This document shows, piece by piece, positions 3,554-10,504 of a stretch of DNA of 21,385 nt. Numbering within the stretch: the stretch's first letter is position 1; every line of letters begins with the position of its first letter. Origin of the DNA: a virus; the IMG/VR virus record IMGVR_UViG_3300033997_000160, positions 1 to 21,385 of that record. One strand, 5' to 3'. The notes under the pieces were generated by a model. That model was not told where the DNA came from and did not search any database. It saw only the letters and a list, made by a program, of their open reading frames with translations. The position numbers and the translations under genes were made by a program.

Positions 3554-3874
3554 ATGACGACCGACAACAACACCCTGCCCGACACCAGCCCGGCCGCGGT
3601 GCTGGCCATGACGCGCAATCTGCGCACCAACGGCTACGAGCTCGCGGCGCGAATGATGGAAGCGCTGGCGGGCGCCGCCCCTGGCGTATCCACGGTGGAG
3701 GAGTCTCCCGCTGCTGGCGATGCGCCGGCCATCGTGCTGCCCGCCAAGATGCCGAAGCATGAGAGCGACGGCGGCGAATACCCCAGCTCCGAATCCTACA
3801 AGGAAGGGTATGTCGAGGGCTGGAACGATGCCATTGCTGGAGCCATTGCAGCCCAACGTAAGGGGGATGCGTGA
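3554..3874 (+). CDS. Small phage protein with C-terminal GYVEGWNDAI motif, function unknown
   Basis: The 106-residue product has a low-complexity Ala/Pro/Glu-rich centre and a C-terminal amphipathic segment ESYKEGYVEGWNDAIAGAI. That kind of ending occurs on many short accessory phage proteins of this host group (from memory). The start is fixed by AAGGAG at 3541-3546, seven bases before the ATG at 3554; in-frame sequence upstream lies inside the previous gene. Its stop overlaps the next start in the form TGATG (3872-3876), indicating coupled translation with the methyltransferase gene. No function can be assigned. Confidence 0.7.
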   Translation: MTTDNNTLPDTSPAAVLAMTRNLRTNGYELAARMMEALAGAAPGVSTVEESPAAGDAPAIVLPAKMPKHESDGGEYPSSESYKEGYVEGWNDAIAGAIAAQRKGDA

Positions 3875-4995
3875 TGGCCAGGGCCGTCGCCTACTACAAC
3901 GAGATCGACCCTTACGCCGCCGACTGGCTCCGCAACCTGATCGCGGCCGGCCACATTGCCCCCGGCGACGTCGACGAACGCAGCATAGAGGACGTACACC
4001 CTGATGACCTTCGCCCCTACACCCAGTGCCATTTCTTCGCCGGAATCGGCGTCTGGTCGTATGCCCTTCGCCGCGCCGGCTGGCCTGACGATCGACCTGT
4101 TTGGACGGGTTCCTGCCCGTGCCAACCTTTCTCCGCGGCAGGCAAAGGAACTGCGTTTGATGACGAGCGGCACCTCTGGCCGGCCTGGCACTGGATCATT
4201 CAAGAGTGCCGCCCTCCAGTCGTCTTTGGCGAGCAAGTTGCAAGCAAGGACGCAGAACCTTGGCTCGACCTTGTTTCGACTGACCTGGAAGCCCTGGTCT
4301 ATGCCGTCGCGGCGTGCGCTTTCCCGTCTGCGAGCGTCGGTGCTCCGCACATCCGCGATCGAACCTACTTCGTGGCCTACGCCAGCGGCGCGGGACTGGA
4401 CAGGAGCGCCGCGGGAACGGTGGGGCGACAACGCGCGGCCGCTGAACGAGGTAGCAGTACTGGCCGGCTGGCCCACCCCGACGTCGTCGCTGGCAGACAA
4501 GGGCGTGAGGTCGACGGAGGGCGGCATCCGGGAAGCGATGCGCGGCCACGGGCCGGATCTGGCTGCGATGGCGTGCCTGTCAAGCTGGGCAACGCCGAGG
4601 GCGAACGATTCGGAGAAGCGCGGGGAACTGGCGCCGGACATCCGCAACGGTCTTCCGATGCAGGCACAGATGGCTGGGTGGCCGACGCCGTCCTGCAACA
4701 ACGATCGGACGGGCAACCCGGAATCGGCCATGAGCATGACCAGGGCGGACGGGTCGAAGGTGCAGCAGCGCCTACAGGACTTCGCGGCGATCTGCGGCCC
4801 GGCCCGGTTAACGGCTTCTGGCGAGCTGCTGATTGGCTCCTCTGCCGGGATGGAAAGTGGCGGCCAGTTGAGCCCGGCACATTCCCGCTGGCTCATGGGG
4901 CTCCCGCCCGAGTGGGACGCCTGCGCGCCTACGGCAACGCGATCAACGCGCAGCAAGCGCAAATCTTCATCGAAGAAAGCATGAGGTGCATATGA
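3874..4995 (+). CDS. DNA (cytosine-5) methyltransferase of phage type
   Basis: The 373-residue product has the C5-cytosine methyltransferase motifs in order: cofactor-loop FFAGIG (54-59), catalytic SCPCQPFS with the nucleophile Cys83, the GEQV equivalent of ENV with Glu120, and HIRDRTYFVA (159-168), an R-x-R motif. A long Gly/Arg-rich insert of about 130 residues follows, where target recognition usually lies, and the C-terminus has LRAYGNAI (motif X, GNAI at 354-357). Such enzymes methylate phage DNA, usually against host restriction. I chose ATG 3874 over GTG 3871 because AAGGGGG (3860-3866) is better spaced from it. The insert is odd: its third-position GC falls to about 58 % and it is overlapped throughout by another long ORF. 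The specificity is unknown. Confidence 0.85.
   Translation: MARAVAYYNEIDPYAADWLRNLIAAGHIAPGDVDERSIEDVHPDDLRPYTQCHFFAGIGVWSYALRRAGWPDDRPVWTGSCPCQPFSAAGKGTAFDDERHLWPAWHWIIQECRPPVVFGEQVASKDAEPWLDLVSTDLEALVYAVAACAFPSASVGAPHIRDRTYFVAYASGAGLDRSAAGTVGRQRAAAERGSSTGRLAHPDVVAGRQGREVDGGRHPGSDARPRAGSGCDGVPVKLGNAEGERFGEARGTGAGHPQRSSDAGTDGWVADAVLQQRSDGQPGIGHEHDQGGRVEGAAAPTGLRGDLRPGPVNGFWRAADWLLCRDGKWRPVEPGTFPLAHGAPARVGRLRAYGNAINAQQAQIFIEESMRCI
4004..4984 (+). CDS. Overlapping +1-frame ORF encoding a W-[PA]-T-P-repeat protein inside the methyltransferase gene
   Basis: A 326-codon ORF lies wholly inside the methyltransferase gene, shifted by one base. The product has a Ser/Ala/Leu-rich N-terminal part (about 60-110, with STLFRLTWKPW near the end), then repeats of the form SWPTP, GWPTP, SWATP and GWPTP. 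A C-terminal block follows, PARLTASGELLIGSSAGM then LSPAHSRWLMGLPPEWDACAP. I recall proteins of this shape from many proteobacterial phages, often loosely labelled methyltransferase or hypothetical. By hand count over 4441-4800 this frame has about 85 % GC at third positions, against 58 % for the methyltransferase frame. A possible ribosome site, GAGGA, lies at 3988-3992, eleven bases before the ATG. Function is unknown; it could still be an unexpressed shadow frame. Confidence 0.55.
   Translation: MTFAPTPSAISSPESASGRMPFAAPAGLTIDLFGRVPARANLSPRQAKELRLMTSGTSGRPGTGSFKSAALQSSLASKLQARTQNLGSTLFRLTWKPWSMPSRRALSRLRASVLRTSAIEPTSWPTPAARDWTGAPRERWGDNARPLNEVAVLAGWPTPTSSLADKGVRSTEGGIREAMRGHGPDLAAMACLSSWATPRANDSEKRGELAPDIRNGLPMQAQMAGWPTPSCNNDRTGNPESAMSMTRADGSKVQQRLQDFAAICGPARLTASGELLIGSSAGMESGGQLSPAHSRWLMGLPPEWDACAPTATRSTRSKRKSSSKKA
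4373..4689 (+). repeat. Four in-register copies of an 11-nt TGGSCNACSCC motif
   Basis: Copies lie at 4373-4383, 4469-4479, 4586-4596 and 4679-4689, spaced 96, 117 and 93 nt, all multiples of three. In the methyltransferase frame they read as VAYA, LAHP, LGNA and VADA. In the overlapping frame they read as WPTP, WPTP, WATP and WPTP. They mark units of 30-40 codons within the methyltransferase insert. Confidence 0.7.
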
Positions 4996-6377
4996 CCCAA
5001 CAAGACGACATCACCCAGCGCGTGCTGACGGACGACGAAATCCGCGACATCATCACTGGCACCCATCAGGCGTTCGGCGAATTCAAGTCCGGCTACATGC
5101 TCGTATTGGGCCGCGCCATCGAATCCGCCCTGCTGTCCAAGCTGCGCGCCCCTGTAGCCGATGAGCGGCAAGCCGTGGCGTATCTCGATCTGGGCACGGG
5201 CGGCTATATGGACATGGACACCGATCTGACCGACGCGGAACTGGCCGCACTGCCTAAAGGGCGGCACATGCTCGCCATCATCGGCACTCACGGCGTAAAC
5301 GGGTATACACCTGTAAGTGCCCCTATGGCCGATGAGCGGGCGGTGGAGACGTTCGCCGAGCGCTTCGCGCTGGCCCTTAAGCCTGTCGCCTATACGACCA
5401 AGCGCGGCGCCGTCTATCTCGGAAAATCAACGCAGGTCGGCAGCGAGAACCTCTGCACCATCAGCCAGGCCGTCTACGAGTTTCGCGCCGCCCTGGCAAG
5501 CGCCCCTGTAGCCGTAGAACAGCACGACGGCCTGCGGACGTTGCTGGCCGAGCTGCCCGGCATGCACGAAGACCCGAAAAAAGGAGACGCCGTGTTCCGG
5601 TGTGGCGTCAACGGTGCGCTGAATGTTGTCGAGCGCCGTATCCGCGAACTGCTGCGCAGCGCCCCTGTAGCCGGGGAGGCGCAGGAGCGTATCGAGCAGA
5701 TGGCCGTGAATCGGTATCGGCCGGTCCCTGATGGCAAGTTCAGCTACAAGGTCGTCGCGGGCGATGGAAGTCGGTCGCTTTACACCGGAACGAAGGATTC
5801 TTGCCTGCGGGTTGCTGCAAAGCTGACGGAAGCATTTCTTGATGGCGCGTTTGTTGCGTCAGGTGCCGCGCCCCAGGCCAGCGCCGAGGACGTGCGCAAT
5901 GCGGCGCTGGAGGAAGCGGCTCAAACGGCCTACAAGGCGCTGTTTCCCACGAATGATCGCAGTGACTGGACGGAATTCGCCGAAAGCGCGGCCTACCATG
6001 CGGAATGGGCAGCCAAATGCATCCACGCCCTCAAGACCCAGGCGAACAAGGACGGCGGGGATTGCGCGAAGGACGCGGGGGATGTGCCCGTCCACCTGCT
6101 GGACCGATTACGCCACCACGCCGCCGACAAGGCCAACACGGCGTTCTCCCGCAGCACGATGGCAGAGGCCGCCGCGATCCTGGACGACCGCCAGCAGCGC
6201 GCCGGGGATGACTTCGACGTTGAAGCTGCGGCGAAGACCATGGCCGAGTGCATGGACTATCCCTGGGCGCATATGCCCGAGAAGGGCCGAGAGCAAATGC
6301 GGCTGCATGCGCAGTCCGTCATCCGCGCCGCCCTTTCTGCCCCCCAGGCCGAACAAGGAGAGCGGGATGCGGGTTGA
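4992..6377 (+). CDS. Mosaic phage protein with repeated Ala-Pro-Val-Ala linkers, function unknown
   Basis: The 461-residue product has no recognised enzyme domain. It begins with a helical domain (DDEIRDIITGTHQAFGEF) and then alternates short modules separated by near-identical linkers, APVADER, APMADER, APVAVEQ and APVAGEA. The last part (about 400-450) is a compact helical unit, DVEAAAKTMAECMDYPWAHMPEKGREQMRLHAQSVI, of a kind I recall from many otherwise unrelated phage proteins. The first ATG is at 4992, in an ATGA overlap with the methyltransferase stop, with GAGG at 4983-4986. The modules look interchangeable, suggesting growth by recombination at the linker repeats. It sits between two methyltransferase genes, but a role in modification is not shown. 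Confidence 0.75.
   Translation: MTQQDDITQRVLTDDEIRDIITGTHQAFGEFKSGYMLVLGRAIESALLSKLRAPVADERQAVAYLDLGTGGYMDMDTDLTDAELAALPKGRHMLAIIGTHGVNGYTPVSAPMADERAVETFAERFALALKPVAYTTKRGAVYLGKSTQVGSENLCTISQAVYEFRAALASAPVAVEQHDGLRTLLAELPGMHEDPKKGDAVFRCGVNGALNVVERRIRELLRSAPVAGEAQERIEQMAVNRYRPVPDGKFSYKVVAGDGSRSLYTGTKDSCLRVAAKLTEAFLDGAFVASGAAPQASAEDVRNAALEEAAQTAYKALFPTNDRSDWTEFAESAAYHAEWAAKCIHALKTQANKDGGDCAKDAGDVPVHLLDRLRHHAADKANTAFSRSTMAEAAAILDDRQQRAGDDFDVEAAAKTMAECMDYPWAHMPEKGREQMRLHAQSVIRAALSAPQAEQGERDAG
5146..5679 (+). repeat. Four dispersed copies of a GCGCCCCTGTAGCC-type linker repeat
   Basis: Copies lie at 5146-5168, 5317-5339, 5500-5520 and 5659-5679, spaced 171, 183 and 159 nt, all multiples of three. 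Each encodes [SA]-P-[VM]-A followed by an acidic segment. The first two copies also share the following GATGAGCGG. The shared codons, including the GTA seen in three of the four copies, point to DNA-level duplication rather than protein convergence. Confidence 0.8.
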
Positions 6378-7068
6378 GCACATCGGTACCGCGACGCTGT
6401 ACTGCGGCGACTGCCGGGATCTACTGGACGACTTCCCGTCCTCGCACGCCCTGGTCACGGACCCGCCCTACGGCATCAACCTGGCCAAGCTGACCGGCAC
6501 GTCCCGCAACCGCTGGAACATGGCGCGCCGCACCGTCGCCTACGACTTCAACATTGTGGGCGATGACGGGCCATTCGACCCGGTACAGCTGCTGCGCTTC
6601 CAGACGGCCGTCATCTTCGGCGGCAATCATTTTGGTAGCCGACTGCCGGATGCCTCCTGCTGGCTGGTTTGGGACAAGCGCGACGGTGGCACCAGCGACC
6701 ACCAAGCCGACTGCGAGCTGGCTTGGACGAACCTGCGTGGCCCAGCGCGCTTGTTCTCGCACAAGTGGCGCGGCATGGTGCGCGCCGGCGAGGAAAACGT
6801 CTCCCGGGGCCAGTTCCGCGTGCACCCGACGCAGAAGCCGGTAGCCCTCATGGACTGGGTTCTCAAACAGTGCCGCCTGGCCCCCGGTACCCCCGTCCTC
6901 GATCCGTACATGGGCAGCGGCACCACCGGCATTGCGGCGGCGCGCCTGGGCCTGCCGTTCATCGGGTTCGAAATCGACCCCATTCACTTTGAACGGGCAT
7001 GCGACCGTCTGCGCACTGAGCTGCAGGCCATGCCCCTGTTCGCAACACACAACGATGGAGGCGTATAG
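6367..7068 (+). CDS. Beta-class N6-adenine/N4-cytosine DNA methyltransferase
   Basis: The 233-residue product carries TDPPYGI (31-37), the catalytic DPPY of amino-methyltransferases, then a middle region for target recognition. HPTQKP (153-158) and the cofactor-binding DPYMGSGTTG (179-188) with the following GFEID come last. The order catalytic motif, recognition region, cofactor motif defines the beta class (N6_N4_Mtase domain). DPPY fits adenine-N6 or, less often, cytosine-N4, so the modified base is uncertain. The ATG at 6367 overlaps the previous gene by 11 bases and has AAGGAG at 6355-6360; open sequence upstream in this frame is shadow. Together with the C5 enzyme it gives this phage two solitary methyltransferases and no visible restriction enzyme, consistent with anti-restriction. 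Confidence 0.9.
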   Translation: MRVEHIGTATLYCGDCRDLLDDFPSSHALVTDPPYGINLAKLTGTSRNRWNMARRTVAYDFNIVGDDGPFDPVQLLRFQTAVIFGGNHFGSRLPDASCWLVWDKRDGGTSDHQADCELAWTNLRGPARLFSHKWRGMVRAGEENVSRGQFRVHPTQKPVALMDWVLKQCRLAPGTPVLDPYMGSGTTGIAAARLGLPFIGFEIDPIHFERACDRLRTELQAMPLFATHNDGGV

Positions 7069-7329
7069 ATGGCACACGCAGCCCAACACCAAGCACCGGC
7101 CGCGGCGCCGAAGCTGCTGTATCGAGTGCATGAAGCGCGGGAGGCCCTGGGCCTGTCGACAGCGACGATCTACCGGCTGTGTGCGCGCGGCGAGCTGGTC
7201 AAGGCGCCTATCGGTGGCACCAGGTCGGTGGGCATCACCGCGGCGTCGGTGAATGCTATGCTGGCGCGCATGTCACAGCCGGTCACCGAAGAGGCCGACG
7301 AACCCAGCACCCCCTCGGTGGGTAGCTAA
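7069..7329 (+). CDS. Excisionase-like helix-turn-helix protein
   Basis: The 86-residue product contains a MerR/excisionase-type helix-turn-helix over about residues 17-66: YRVHEAREALGLSTATIYRL, then ARGELVKAPIGGTRSVGIT. Such small proteins bind and bend attachment-site DNA to direct integrase toward excision. The ATG directly follows the methyltransferase stop and TGGAGG lies at 7056-7061. The integrase gene begins 264 bases downstream on the same strand, and the TGGGTAGC repeat set starts over the last codons of this gene. This supports a Xis role. An AlpA-like transcription regulator is the main alternative. Confidence 0.75.
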   Translation: MAHAAQHQAPAAAPKLLYRVHEAREALGLSTATIYRLCARGELVKAPIGGTRSVGITAASVNAMLARMSQPVTEEADEPSTPSVGS

Positions 7330-7340
7330 ATGGGTAGCCA
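7319..7340 (+). repeat. Left copy of 22-bp direct repeat
   Basis: This copy is TGGGTAGC, TAAA, TGGGTAGC, CA. It is the same as 7541-7562 except for the two bases at its eleventh and twelfth positions, and the two lie exactly 222 bp apart. It covers the excisionase stop codon. It may be a pair of integrase arm sites. Confidence 0.85.
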
Positions 7341-7471
7341 GGGGCAATTACCAGAACAAGAAAGCCCCGGAAACCCGCATCAGTCCTATATCTTGCAGAA
7401 CACACCCGAGCAATACGACATAATCTTGGTCTGATGCTCCGGACTTCTCACCACCTATCACCGCCCCTCTG

Positions 7472-7497
7472 AAAGCCGCATAAATCCTTGCGGCTTT
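7472..7497. terminator. Rho-independent terminator hairpin between excisionase and integrase genes
   Basis: A perfect 9-bp stem, AAAGCCGCA (7472-7480) with TGCGGCTTT (7489-7497), encloses an 8-base loop and is followed by GTTTCTT. The A/T ends allow it to work in both directions. It would end early-cassette transcripts before integrase, implying that integrase has its own promoter or depends on read-through. I could not identify a convincing promoter between 7340 and 7590. Confidence 0.75.
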
Positions 7498-7540
7498 GTT
7501 TCTTGGCTTCTCAGGCGTTATCCTCCCAGCTCACAAAAAA

Positions 7541-7562
7541 TGGGTAGCTAGGTGGGTAGCCA
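7541..7562 (+). repeat. Right copy of 22-bp direct repeat, forming a hairpin with 7572-7579
   Basis: This is the second copy of the repeat at 7319-7340. Its last TGGGTAGC (7553-7560) can pair with GCTACCCA at 7572-7579 in an 8-bp stem with an 11-base loop. The stem ends six bases before the GAGGGA ribosome site (7585-7590) of the integrase gene. Confidence 0.85.
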
Positions 7563-7593
7563 AACCGCCCAGCTACCCAAAACCGAGGGAACC

Positions 7594-8907
7594 ATGGCGA
7601 CCAAGCGTGTATTGCAGGGCCTCCTGACCGATGTACAGATCAAGAGCTGGATCCGCGCCGGCGCGCCCGTGGCCAAGTCCGACGGCGGCGGCCTGACCTT
7701 CACCCTTTCCAAGGCGGGCACCGCGGCCTGGGTGCTGCGCTACCGAATGCCCGGCCGGCGCGCCGAGGCCACCATCGGTAACTACCCGGATATCACCCTC
7801 GCCGAAGCGCGCAAGGAGGCCAGCCGGTTGCGCGCCATGATCGACGCCGGCAAAGACCCGGCCGCAGAGAAGCGCGAGGCCAAGCAGAAAGCCCGCGCCG
7901 CCAAGACCATCGATTGGCTGGCGGACGACTACCGCGCCAAGGTGCTGCGCCATCTGGCGCCCAACAGCCAGAAGCTGTACGAGCGCCAGCTGCGCCGGAT
8001 AGGGAAGGACTGGCGCGGCCGTGCCGTCGATGGTGTCGCGCCAGGCGACGTCATCGACCTGATCCGCAAGACGAAGGACGGATTCGCCACCGGCGCGGGC
8101 TGGCGCGAGACCGAGGCGCTGTACATCGTCACCCGCGAGATGTTCAAGCACGCCGCAGGCCAGCACATCATCCAGGTCAACCCAGCCGTGGGCATCAGCC
8201 TTGAATCCCTGATCGGCAAGCGCCCCAAAGCAAAAGTGCGCCTTATGCTGACCGACGACGAGCTGGCGGAGGTCATGCGCGCCGCCGGCATGAACCGTCA
8301 GAACCAGCTCAGCGTCTGGATCATCCTGGCCACCTGCGTGCGCGTGTCCGAATTCACCACCGCGCTGCGCGAGCATATCCGCGTCGACCAGCACACGGTG
8401 AAGCGCCTGGGCGCCGGCCTGTGGCATATACCGGCGTCCAAGACCGGGCCTGCAATGGACATCCCCCTGGCCCCGCCAGTCGTGGAATGGTTCCGCGAGC
8501 TCGACGCGCTGGCGCTGGACTCCCGCTACATCGTGCCGGCGCGATCGGTGGCGCGTCTGCGGAACGGCGGCGGTGATGCGCCTATAAACAAAGACGCGAT
8601 CTGGGGCGCCATCTGCTACTGGTTCGAGAATGCCACGCCCAACGTGCGGCCGTTCACCCCGCACGATCTGCGGTCGACCGCGAAATCGCACATGCGCGCC
8701 CTGGGCGTCGACCGCGACATTTCAGAGATGTGCCTGAACCACAAGCTCAAGGGCGTGGAGGGGATCTACGACCAGTACAGCTACTGGAAGGAGCGGCGCG
8801 AGGCGCTGGCGCTGTGGGCCGACCACCTGCTGGCGTGCCGCGGCGCGGACGTCGAGGCGGCTGGCACCGCCCGCAACGCCCTGGCCGCCCTGCGCGCCGC
8901 GTCTTGA
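7594..8907 (+). CDS. int: P4-type tyrosine integrase
   Basis: The 437-residue product has an N-terminal DUF4102-type arm-binding domain (about 5-95, with RYRMPGRRAEATIGNYPDITLAEAR in it), a core-binding region (about 105-200) and a catalytic domain. Likely catalytic residues are R250 in TCVRVSE, K283 in SKTGPAM, H357 and R360 in HDLR, H383 in LNHK and the nucleophile Y392 in GIYDQYSYWKERREAL. The usual TGxR is TCVR here. I start at ATG 7594, which has GAGGGA four bases upstream, not at the open GTG at 7552. It integrates and excises the phage at an att site, probably with the small helix-turn-helix protein upstream. Length and motif spacing are normal, so it should be active. Confidence 0.93.
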   Translation: MATKRVLQGLLTDVQIKSWIRAGAPVAKSDGGGLTFTLSKAGTAAWVLRYRMPGRRAEATIGNYPDITLAEARKEASRLRAMIDAGKDPAAEKREAKQKARAAKTIDWLADDYRAKVLRHLAPNSQKLYERQLRRIGKDWRGRAVDGVAPGDVIDLIRKTKDGFATGAGWRETEALYIVTREMFKHAAGQHIIQVNPAVGISLESLIGKRPKAKVRLMLTDDELAEVMRAAGMNRQNQLSVWIILATCVRVSEFTTALREHIRVDQHTVKRLGAGLWHIPASKTGPAMDIPLAPPVVEWFRELDALALDSRYIVPARSVARLRNGGGDAPINKDAIWGAICYWFENATPNVRPFTPHDLRSTAKSHMRALGVDRDISEMCLNHKLKGVEGIYDQYSYWKERREALALWADHLLACRGADVEAAGTARNALAALRAAS

Positions 8908-8943: not shown

Positions 8944-9606
8944 ATGTGCAGCCACTACCAGACCCTGAAGGACGCCGAGCTGCTGCTGAAGAAGTTCGGC
9001 GCGCCCAACAAGCCGGCGGGCGGCAAGTACGACATGTGGCCCGGCTACGACGGCGTCATTGTGCGCAGGCCGCTGGAACATGACGCCGGCGACGAGGCCG
9101 TGCCCGAGCGAGAGGCAGTCGTGGGCCGCTGGGGCATGATTCCGCCAGGCACGCCGGCGGCCAAGCTCCCCAGCGCAGGTAAAGTGCCCACGTTCAACGC
9201 GCGGTCTGAGACGGCACATAAGCTTTGGACGTTTCGGAATGCATGGGCGAAGGCCCAGCGCTGCATCATCCCAGCCGACGCGATCTTCGAACCCGACTGG
9301 CGGTCTGGCGCCGCAGTGGCCACCCGGTTCACCCGAGCTGATGGCGCGCCGCTGGGCATTGCCGGCCTGTGGGATCGCTGGCGCGACGCCGCTGGCCAGG
9401 TGCAGGAAAGCTACACCATGCTGACGATCAACGCCGACCAGGACCCGCTGTTCCGGGACTACCACCAGGCCGGCAAGGAAAAGCGCATGGTCGTCATCCT
9501 GCCGGAGGGCGCCTACGGCGACTGGCTCACCGCGCCGGCCGATGCGACACGGGATTTCTTGGTGCCCTTCCCTGCGGAAAAGCTGGTTGCAACCCCGATG
9601 AAATGA
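8944..9606 (+). CDS. SRAP (YedK/HMCES-type) abasic-site protein
   Basis: The 220-residue product belongs to the SOS-response-associated peptidase family. Key family features are present: Cys2 directly after Met1, which forms the covalent link to abasic sites in single-stranded DNA; Asn85 in FNARSET; Glu116 in IFEPDW; and a His174/KRMVVILP segment matching the usual HxRMPVIL. The family shields abasic sites in exposed single strands. The ATG has GGGAGG at 8933-8938. The gene lies 36 bases after integrase, followed by a small gene with a LexA-like operator. In a phage that makes much single-stranded DNA through its exonuclease, protection of damaged templates is a reasonable inferred role. Confidence 0.92.
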   Translation: MCSHYQTLKDAELLLKKFGAPNKPAGGKYDMWPGYDGVIVRRPLEHDAGDEAVPEREAVVGRWGMIPPGTPAAKLPSAGKVPTFNARSETAHKLWTFRNAWAKAQRCIIPADAIFEPDWRSGAAVATRFTRADGAPLGIAGLWDRWRDAAGQVQESYTMLTINADQDPLFRDYHQAGKEKRMVVILPEGAYGDWLTAPADATRDFLVPFPAEKLVATPMK

Positions 9607-9955: not shown

Positions 9956-10504
9956 CTATGTATCAGTTTTGGTCGGCTTGCCGGCGGCCTTTTCGCCGCG
10001 AGTTGGCTCAACCCTTCGACGGATTGCCTGGACCATCCCAAGGACGGGGAGCGACACTAGGGCGACGGGGATGGCCCAGTACCAGCGAGACGTGACGCCG
10101 TAGATCAGGCCAACAATGGCGGTTGCTGCGGCCGCGAGTAGAGCAATGCACGAAACCACCGCCCCGAGTATCTGGCCGGTCTTATCGCTGGAAAAAACAC
10201 CATCGATGCGGCGCTGCTCTATGCCAGTCAGGGTTCTGCGGTGCGCTACGTCTGATTCGAGCTGCTGGCGTTCCATCTCGCGGCGATGAGCCGCCTCGCC
10301 TTCCGCCATAGTGATAATACGGTCGGCAGCACCTGGAGAAAGCTGGTCGTATTGGCGCAGCACCTCGGGATGAGGCAGCGGTCCCTGATGGATTTCCGCC
10401 TGCATCATGGTCTGGCGGCGCACCACCTCTGCGCCTTGCTGTTGCCCAGCTGGCCGCAAAGATGAAGGGGAACTTGGGCGGTGAGACGGCTTACCGCGAG
10501 CCAT
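9956..10504 (-). CDS. DUF2335 family membrane protein
   Basis: The 182-residue product matches the DUF2335 pattern: a soluble N-terminal part with GPLPHPEVLRQYDQLSPGAADRIITMAE (about 41-68), a charged helix AAHRREMERQQLESD, then two hydrophobic segments (about 111-137 and 142-160) and a basic C-terminal tail. This is a predicted inner-membrane protein with the N-terminal helix in the cytoplasm. The family is common in prophages and other mobile elements and has no established function. The ATG at 10504 overlaps the upstream gene by 14 bases; no ribosome site is obvious, so translation may depend on coupling. It is the last gene of the leftward block and faces the + strand SRAP pair, suggesting a cargo pair at the end of the lysis module. 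Confidence 0.8.
   Translation of the reverse strand: MARGKPSHRPSSPSSLRPAGQQQGAEVVRRQTMMQAEIHQGPLPHPEVLRQYDQLSPGAADRIITMAEGEAAHRREMERQQLESDVAHRRTLTGIEQRRIDGVFSSDKTGQILGAVVSCIALLAAAATAIVGLIYGVTSRWYWAIPVALVSLPVLGMVQAIRRRVEPTRGEKAAGKPTKTDT

Follow-up and report, generated by a model that had tools for sequence, protein, structure and literature searches.

A probable phage attP matching the 3′ end of host rng, and covariation of its arm octamers with two integrase residues

Genes flanking the octamer region

The DNA analyzed here, referred to as the window, is a virus record of 21,385 bases classed as linear. The region of interest, 7319–7579, is flanked by two genes on the plus strand. On its left, 7069–7329 encodes an 86-aa HTH_17 protein resembling phrog_66 (excisionase and transcriptional regulator), which from its family and position is a candidate Xis/RDF. 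On its right, 7594–8907 encodes a 437-aa P4-type tyrosine integrase, with a PF13356 Arm-DNA-bind_3 domain at residues 11–96 (77.7 bits against a cut-off of 27) and a PF00589 catalytic domain at residues 219–392. Its R250, H357, R360, H383 and Y392 were invariant across 22 aligned integrases. No tRNA was found within the window. Farther out, a gene for an SRAP-family protein (SOS response associated peptidase, 8944–9606) lies directly 3′ of int, and genes for C5-cytosine and N6/N4 DNA methyltransferases (3871–4995 and 6367–7068) lie left of the Xis-like gene. On the minus strand, 9956–10504 encodes a membrane protein with DUF2335, which PHROG classes under "moron, auxiliary metabolic gene and host takeover".

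Arrangement of the octamer copies

The window holds five exact copies of TGGGTAGC, every one of them inside 7319–7579. Two on the plus strand form the P arm (7319–7326 and, 12 bp further on, 7331–7338). Two more on the plus strand (7541–7548 and 7553–7560) form the P′ arm together with a third, inverted copy on the minus strand (7572–7579). No further copy was found in the 21,385 bp outside this region. The five sites proposed in an earlier note on this DNA, a pair on each side plus one inverted copy, were all recovered. The chance expectation for the window is 0.33 copies, and the maximum in 100 shuffles was 2. In simulated windows, however, some octamer reached at least five copies within 261 bp in 13 of 200 cases, for which reason the count alone was dropped as proof. 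Copy number being only moderately surprising, the case rests on the arrangement of the copies, two pairs with a 12-bp periodicity placed one on each side plus the inverted copy, and on its conservation in relatives; judged from sequence comparison, these two together exclude chance.

The 22-bp units that begin the two arms (7319–7340 and 7541–7562) start 222 bp apart, exactly as the earlier note had it, but they are 91% identical rather than exact copies. The region sits between the HTH/Xis-like gene and the integrase gene, but its core is not simply gene-free, as that note described it: 7408–7434 (+) encodes EQYDIILV-stop. The HTH gene, moreover, runs into the first octamer with its final codons (stop codon at 7327–7329).

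Integration junctions at rng

A single scan of genome contigs yielded one relative of the integrase and was replaced by searches of prophage records and whole genomes. The search of viral contigs returned 23 IMG/VR prophages with integrases 66–98% identical to ours, and one fragment. In all 23, a host gene, not the P arm of the window, stood left of the core; it was followed by the core, a terminator-like hairpin, the P′ pair, the inverted copy (usually exact) and int. With genome G829 included, the attL order rng-core-P′-int was found in 24 prophages with this integrase type. The host gene encodes RNase G (equivalog NF008689, 650 bits against a cut-off of 594) and ends in ...YDIILV-stop. The segment at 7408–7434 is a phage copy of this 3′ end.

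An attR carrying the P pair was found in two cases, G001 and G829, with the pair 95 bp before the core in both; both P-arm sites are present there, and attL and attR of G829 are ~46.7 kb apart. An empty attB was found in G810, a near-identical host, and agreed almost letter for letter with the rng side of attL and the downstream side of attR in G001. When the four sites were aligned, attP and the chromosomal attB shared the core and yielded attL and attR. Two polymorphisms between phage and host delimited the crossover. At 7413, attP has A and hosts often have G, and here attL has the host base and attR the phage base (in G829, GCAGTACGAC and ACAATACGAC). At 7422, the phage A occurred in every attL and C, the usual host base, in both attR. 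Strand exchange is thus placed within the 8 bp TACGACAT at 7414–7421, where the sequence switches between phage and host in attL and attR and which is present in the attB of G810.

Downstream of the crossover, the phage sequence reads I-I-L-V-stop and so ends the RNase G gene with its final four codons and the stop. Because the phage supplies these codons, the C-terminus YDIILV of RNase G is unchanged after insertion. A terminator-like hairpin with a 9-bp stem and a T-rich tail (7472–7503, +) comes to lie just downstream of rng after integration and is kept in prophage attL, as are the P′ sites. Folding of 7460–7510 gave −19.2 kcal/mol (z −4.95). Some empty host sites have a GC-rich hairpin of their own at a comparable place, e.g. 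GGAAAGCCGCGATCGCGGCTTTC in L109.

The best overall explanation is that 7319–7579 is the whole attP of a temperate phage whose tyrosine integrase is of the P4 type, to which we assign a probability of about 0.93. The aligned junctions establish the integration site, the crossover interval and the restoration of the gene. Lysogen junctions outside the region, or repeats missing from relatives with this integrase, had been named in the earlier note as evidence against an attP. The junctions lie inside it, with the crossover within the 7340–7540 interval singled out for an attB search, and the repeats are present in 24 of 24 prophages with this integrase and in relatives down to ~40% identity. As the sequences show, recombination takes place within TACGACAT against the identical 8 bp near the end of host rng and yields an attL composed of rng, core, P′ arm and int, and an attR composed of the xis-like gene, P arm, core and the old rng end. 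Since attP is intact, the window is not read as one simple integrated prophage.

Just after rng, L115 (genome G796) has the attL-like sequence TGTCCCGGGCTTCTCAC and a lone TGGGTAGC ~0.9 kb farther on. No integrase match above the search threshold was found nearby; this is probably a decayed prophage at rng.

Arm layout and octamer classes among relatives

The P′ pair at 12-bp spacing, usually with an inverted copy, was found upstream of integrases down to ~40% identity. Across 41 non-redundant integrases the arm layout persisted while the octamer varied (TGGGTAGC, TGAGTAGC, TTTGTAGC, xTGGTAGC), and we count its conservation, too, as shown. GTAGC(T/C)A is the near-invariant part of the octamer, and the two preceding bases define the classes GG, GA, TT and TG. 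In most loci where both arms were found, the distance between the starts of P and P′ was 219–223 bp around differing core sequences, and the two arms carried octamers of the same class. The exception in class is L144, with GC/GA in its P arm against TT in P′; its arm domain is also of the TT class. L144 may have acquired its P′ sites together with its arm domain in a recent swap, or may mark where two tandem elements meet. In L146 and L147 (genomes G893 and G899), which lie in large bacterial contigs, the core has P as well as P′ sites around it, the arrangement that tandem elements at one site would give.

Among more distant integrases, L395 and L396 have GTGTACC(C/A) repeats 12 bp apart upstream of int, the same arm plan with another motif. 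This motif, with an inverted copy, stands upstream of int in L003, L395 and L396.

Covariation of the octamer with integrase residues 51 and 56

Among 415 alignment columns tested over the 41 integrases, residues 56 and 51 were the best associated with octamer class. R51/R56 occurred in 22 of 22 integrases of the GG class, R51/Q56 in 4 of 4 of the GA class and S51/R56 in 4 of 4 of the TG class; in the TT class, 10 of 11 had M or Q at 51, with A, P or S at 56. Outside these two residues no arm-domain position stood out. An association spread over the whole arm domain was unsupported, the mean being 0.16 in the arm domain and 0.18 in the rest. L143 (GA) and L144 (TT) differ in octamer; the two integrases share 96% identity over the catalytic part and 70% over the arm domain. 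In a predicted model (mean pLDDT 83.5), residues 44–52 and 55–63 form adjacent strands, which would bring residues 51 and 56 close together near the hairpin turn.

From this covariation we propose that Arg51 (codon 7744–7746, +) and Arg56 (codon 7759–7761, +), on the beta-hairpin of the arm domain, read the two G's that precede the invariant GTAGC: Arg51 would specify the base two before it and Arg56 the base just before. The other proposed pairings are Gln56 with A, Ala, Pro or Ser56 with T, and Ser, Met or Gln51 with T. The rule was fixed in writing before any new loci were looked at, and was then applied to 15 of them. Eleven fitted fully by the majority of their sites (L260, L271, L284, L290, L292, L293, L294, L378, L389, L393 and L403), two gave a mixed fit (L388, L390) and two failed (L404 and L405, with Gln56 and T). 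For L284 and L393, the automatic pattern missed sites or residues, which were then identified by eye. The new loci are not all independent, as L260 is fairly close to BcepC6B and L271 to L217, both training members. Four of the fitting loci combined R51/P56 with GT, a combination outside the training classes except for one L204 site (R51/S56). On a tree of the catalytic part, which includes L026 as a long-branch row with an over-long reading frame, independent pairs were concordant in 2 of 2 cases for R56 and G, in 4 of 6 for R51 and G (2 uninformative) and in 2 of 3 for Q56 and A (1 uninformative). There were no contrary pairs; residue changes were few, and none of the three associations was significant on its own.

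The same pattern could arise if octamer and arm domain were simply co-inherited as linked DNA, without recognition. The P′ sites adjoin the arm-domain code within ~60 bp, so that linkage alone could move both; the tree holds few independent changes, and the P arm of L144 mismatches its own P′. On the other hand, most loci have matching P-arm sites, which lie ~220 bp off and beyond the core; the association is strongest at two residues of the hairpin and follows an Arg-G and Gln-A logic; and the rule predicted the new R51/P56-GT combination. We therefore consider mere co-inheritance unlikely, and have moderate confidence that residues 51 and 56 read the octamer. It is fairly probable, in our view, that P4-like integrases share a two-residue beta-hairpin code, in which residue 56 reads the position immediately 5′ of GTAGC and residue 51 the one preceding that (Arg pairs with G, Gln with A, and a small residue or Met/Ser with T), and that phages can swap the arm domain and the P′ sites as a unit, so that their attP sites become orthogonal to one another while the ~222-bp geometry, the core and the target are preserved.

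Proposed role of the arm sites

The covariation with the arm domain, including the L143/L144 comparison, also lends strong support to the suggestion of the earlier note that the octamer may be the binding site of the integrase N-terminal domain. Very probably, then, the integrase docks at the octamer, and it would do so through its N-terminal domain; the cognate gene, with its catalytic domain, adjoins the region. While this domain holds the octamers, the catalytic domain would work at the core, and the intasome may be built from the two side-by-side pairs, ~21 helical turns apart, and the inverted third P′ site. No IHF-like site matching the consensus at 8 or more of 9 positions was found in about 7250–7620, a threshold that weak sites could escape.

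Alternatively, the octamers might be operators through which the integrase, the HTH protein or a repressor controls int, rather than sites for building the intasome. The P′ sites and the inverted copy do sit in the 5′ leader of int, and int autoregulation from attL sites is documented for IntS of KplE1 (PMC2951348) and of ICEMlSymR7A (PMC11963761). Nevertheless, the P pair is ~260 bp upstream, on the other side of the core, and integration moves it to the opposite end of the prophage, 46.5 kb off in G829. It nonetheless switches octamer class together with P′ in most loci, and the octamer tracks the integrase arm domain. All this makes a purely regulatory role very improbable. Arm sites of an attP could still have a regulatory effect: the P′ sites lie 15–53 bp before the int start codon, and bound integrase probably represses int, by analogy with the same two systems (PMC2951348; PMC11963761). 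As the promoter scan gave no sigma-70-like site for int, we claim no int promoter. The inverted copy could instead help to form a hairpin in the leader RNA of int (7541–7555 with 7565–7579; 15-nt arms, 87% complementary), but we give this little credence, since outside the octamer the arm varies among prophages (CCGCCCAGCTACCCA, CTTCCAGCTACCCA, GATGCAGCTACCCA), the spacing between inverted copy and pair varies among relatives, and the P arm is left unexplained.

Implications

The overall plan of a P4-like attP is already known. Searches of the open-access literature turned up neither prophages reported at rng, nor TGGGTAGC described as an arm site, nor the covariation rule. With the present site, an attP/attB pair is resolved to the base for a family whose insertion site, the 3′ end of rng, is conserved and protein-coding. 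Since insertion leaves the RNase G C-terminus unaltered, it is a candidate integration tool for what appear to be Achromobacter- or Bordetella-like hosts. If the two-residue rule is true, protein sequence could be used to predict the arm sites of many P4-like integrases, genomic-island ones among them, and recombination tools for the laboratory could be given other arm specificities. R56Q or R51S arm domains would then shift their preference toward TGAGTAGC or TTGGTAGC; more generally, shifts among TGGGTAGC, TGAGTAGC, TGTGTAGC and TTGGTAGC are predicted for R56Q, R56A, R51S and R51M. The near-constant distance between P and P′ across different targets is a constraint for intasome models to explain.

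Comparison with known systems

Lambda attP has an arm-core-arm plan and an integrase with separate arm- and core-binding domains. The present site was likened to it in the earlier note, with a new arm sequence; the plan is indeed alike, but the five-site attP of the P4-type ICEMlSymR7A is the closer precedent. The lambda arm domain belongs to another family and its arm sequences differ. In lambda, int and xis are both on one side of attP, whereas here int and the xis-like gene flank it.

The attP of ICEMlSymR7A spans 283 bp and contains five P/arm-type motifs, all reported to be required for efficient integration; int is immediately 3′ of attL, and IntS represses its own promoter (PMC11963761). 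As there, five arm-type sites flank the core, here two on the P side and three on the P′ side. ICEMlSymR7A differs in being a Mesorhizobium ICE with the arm consensus TGKTGGTATC and with the RDF gene rdfS elsewhere in the element (PMC11963761). In the KplE1 prophage, the int promoter region overlaps attL and the arm sites, and IntS is autoregulated (PMC2951348). Arm sites at the int promoter region are a point of likeness to our attP; the argW tRNA target and the TAAA-motif arm sites are not.

In the predicted model, arm-domain residues 10–86 matched the arm-type domains of the HPI integrase, 3jtz (Z 12.6, 1.8 Å) and 3rmp (Z 12.5, 1.5 Å), at 31–32% identity over 75–77 residues. The latter entry is titled "Structural basis for the recognition of attP substrates by P4-like integrases". 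The arm-type binding domains of the P4-like integrases in 3jtz, 3ju0 and 3rmp, that of HPI among them, are homologous to the one here, whereas arm sequence and target differ.

In a search of phage records, the integrase matched that of BcepC6B (NC_005887) at 41% identity and others at <30%. No published analysis of the BcepC6B attP was found in the open-access literature searched. BcepC6B resembles the window in its GGGTAGC arm class and its P/P′ spacing of ~220 bp. It differs in having an MKIATC... reading frame between the arms, without the rng end, and probably uses another target. In L143, L144, L146, L163, L189, L224, L235, L378, L389 and L403, a stretch like ATGAAAMTNGCNACCTG (MK[I/L]AT[C/W]...) lies between the arms. 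It resembles the beginning of a host gene, possibly that of exodeoxyribonuclease III; if it is a host gene start, it would be a second conserved target, one at which the phage replaces the start of a gene.
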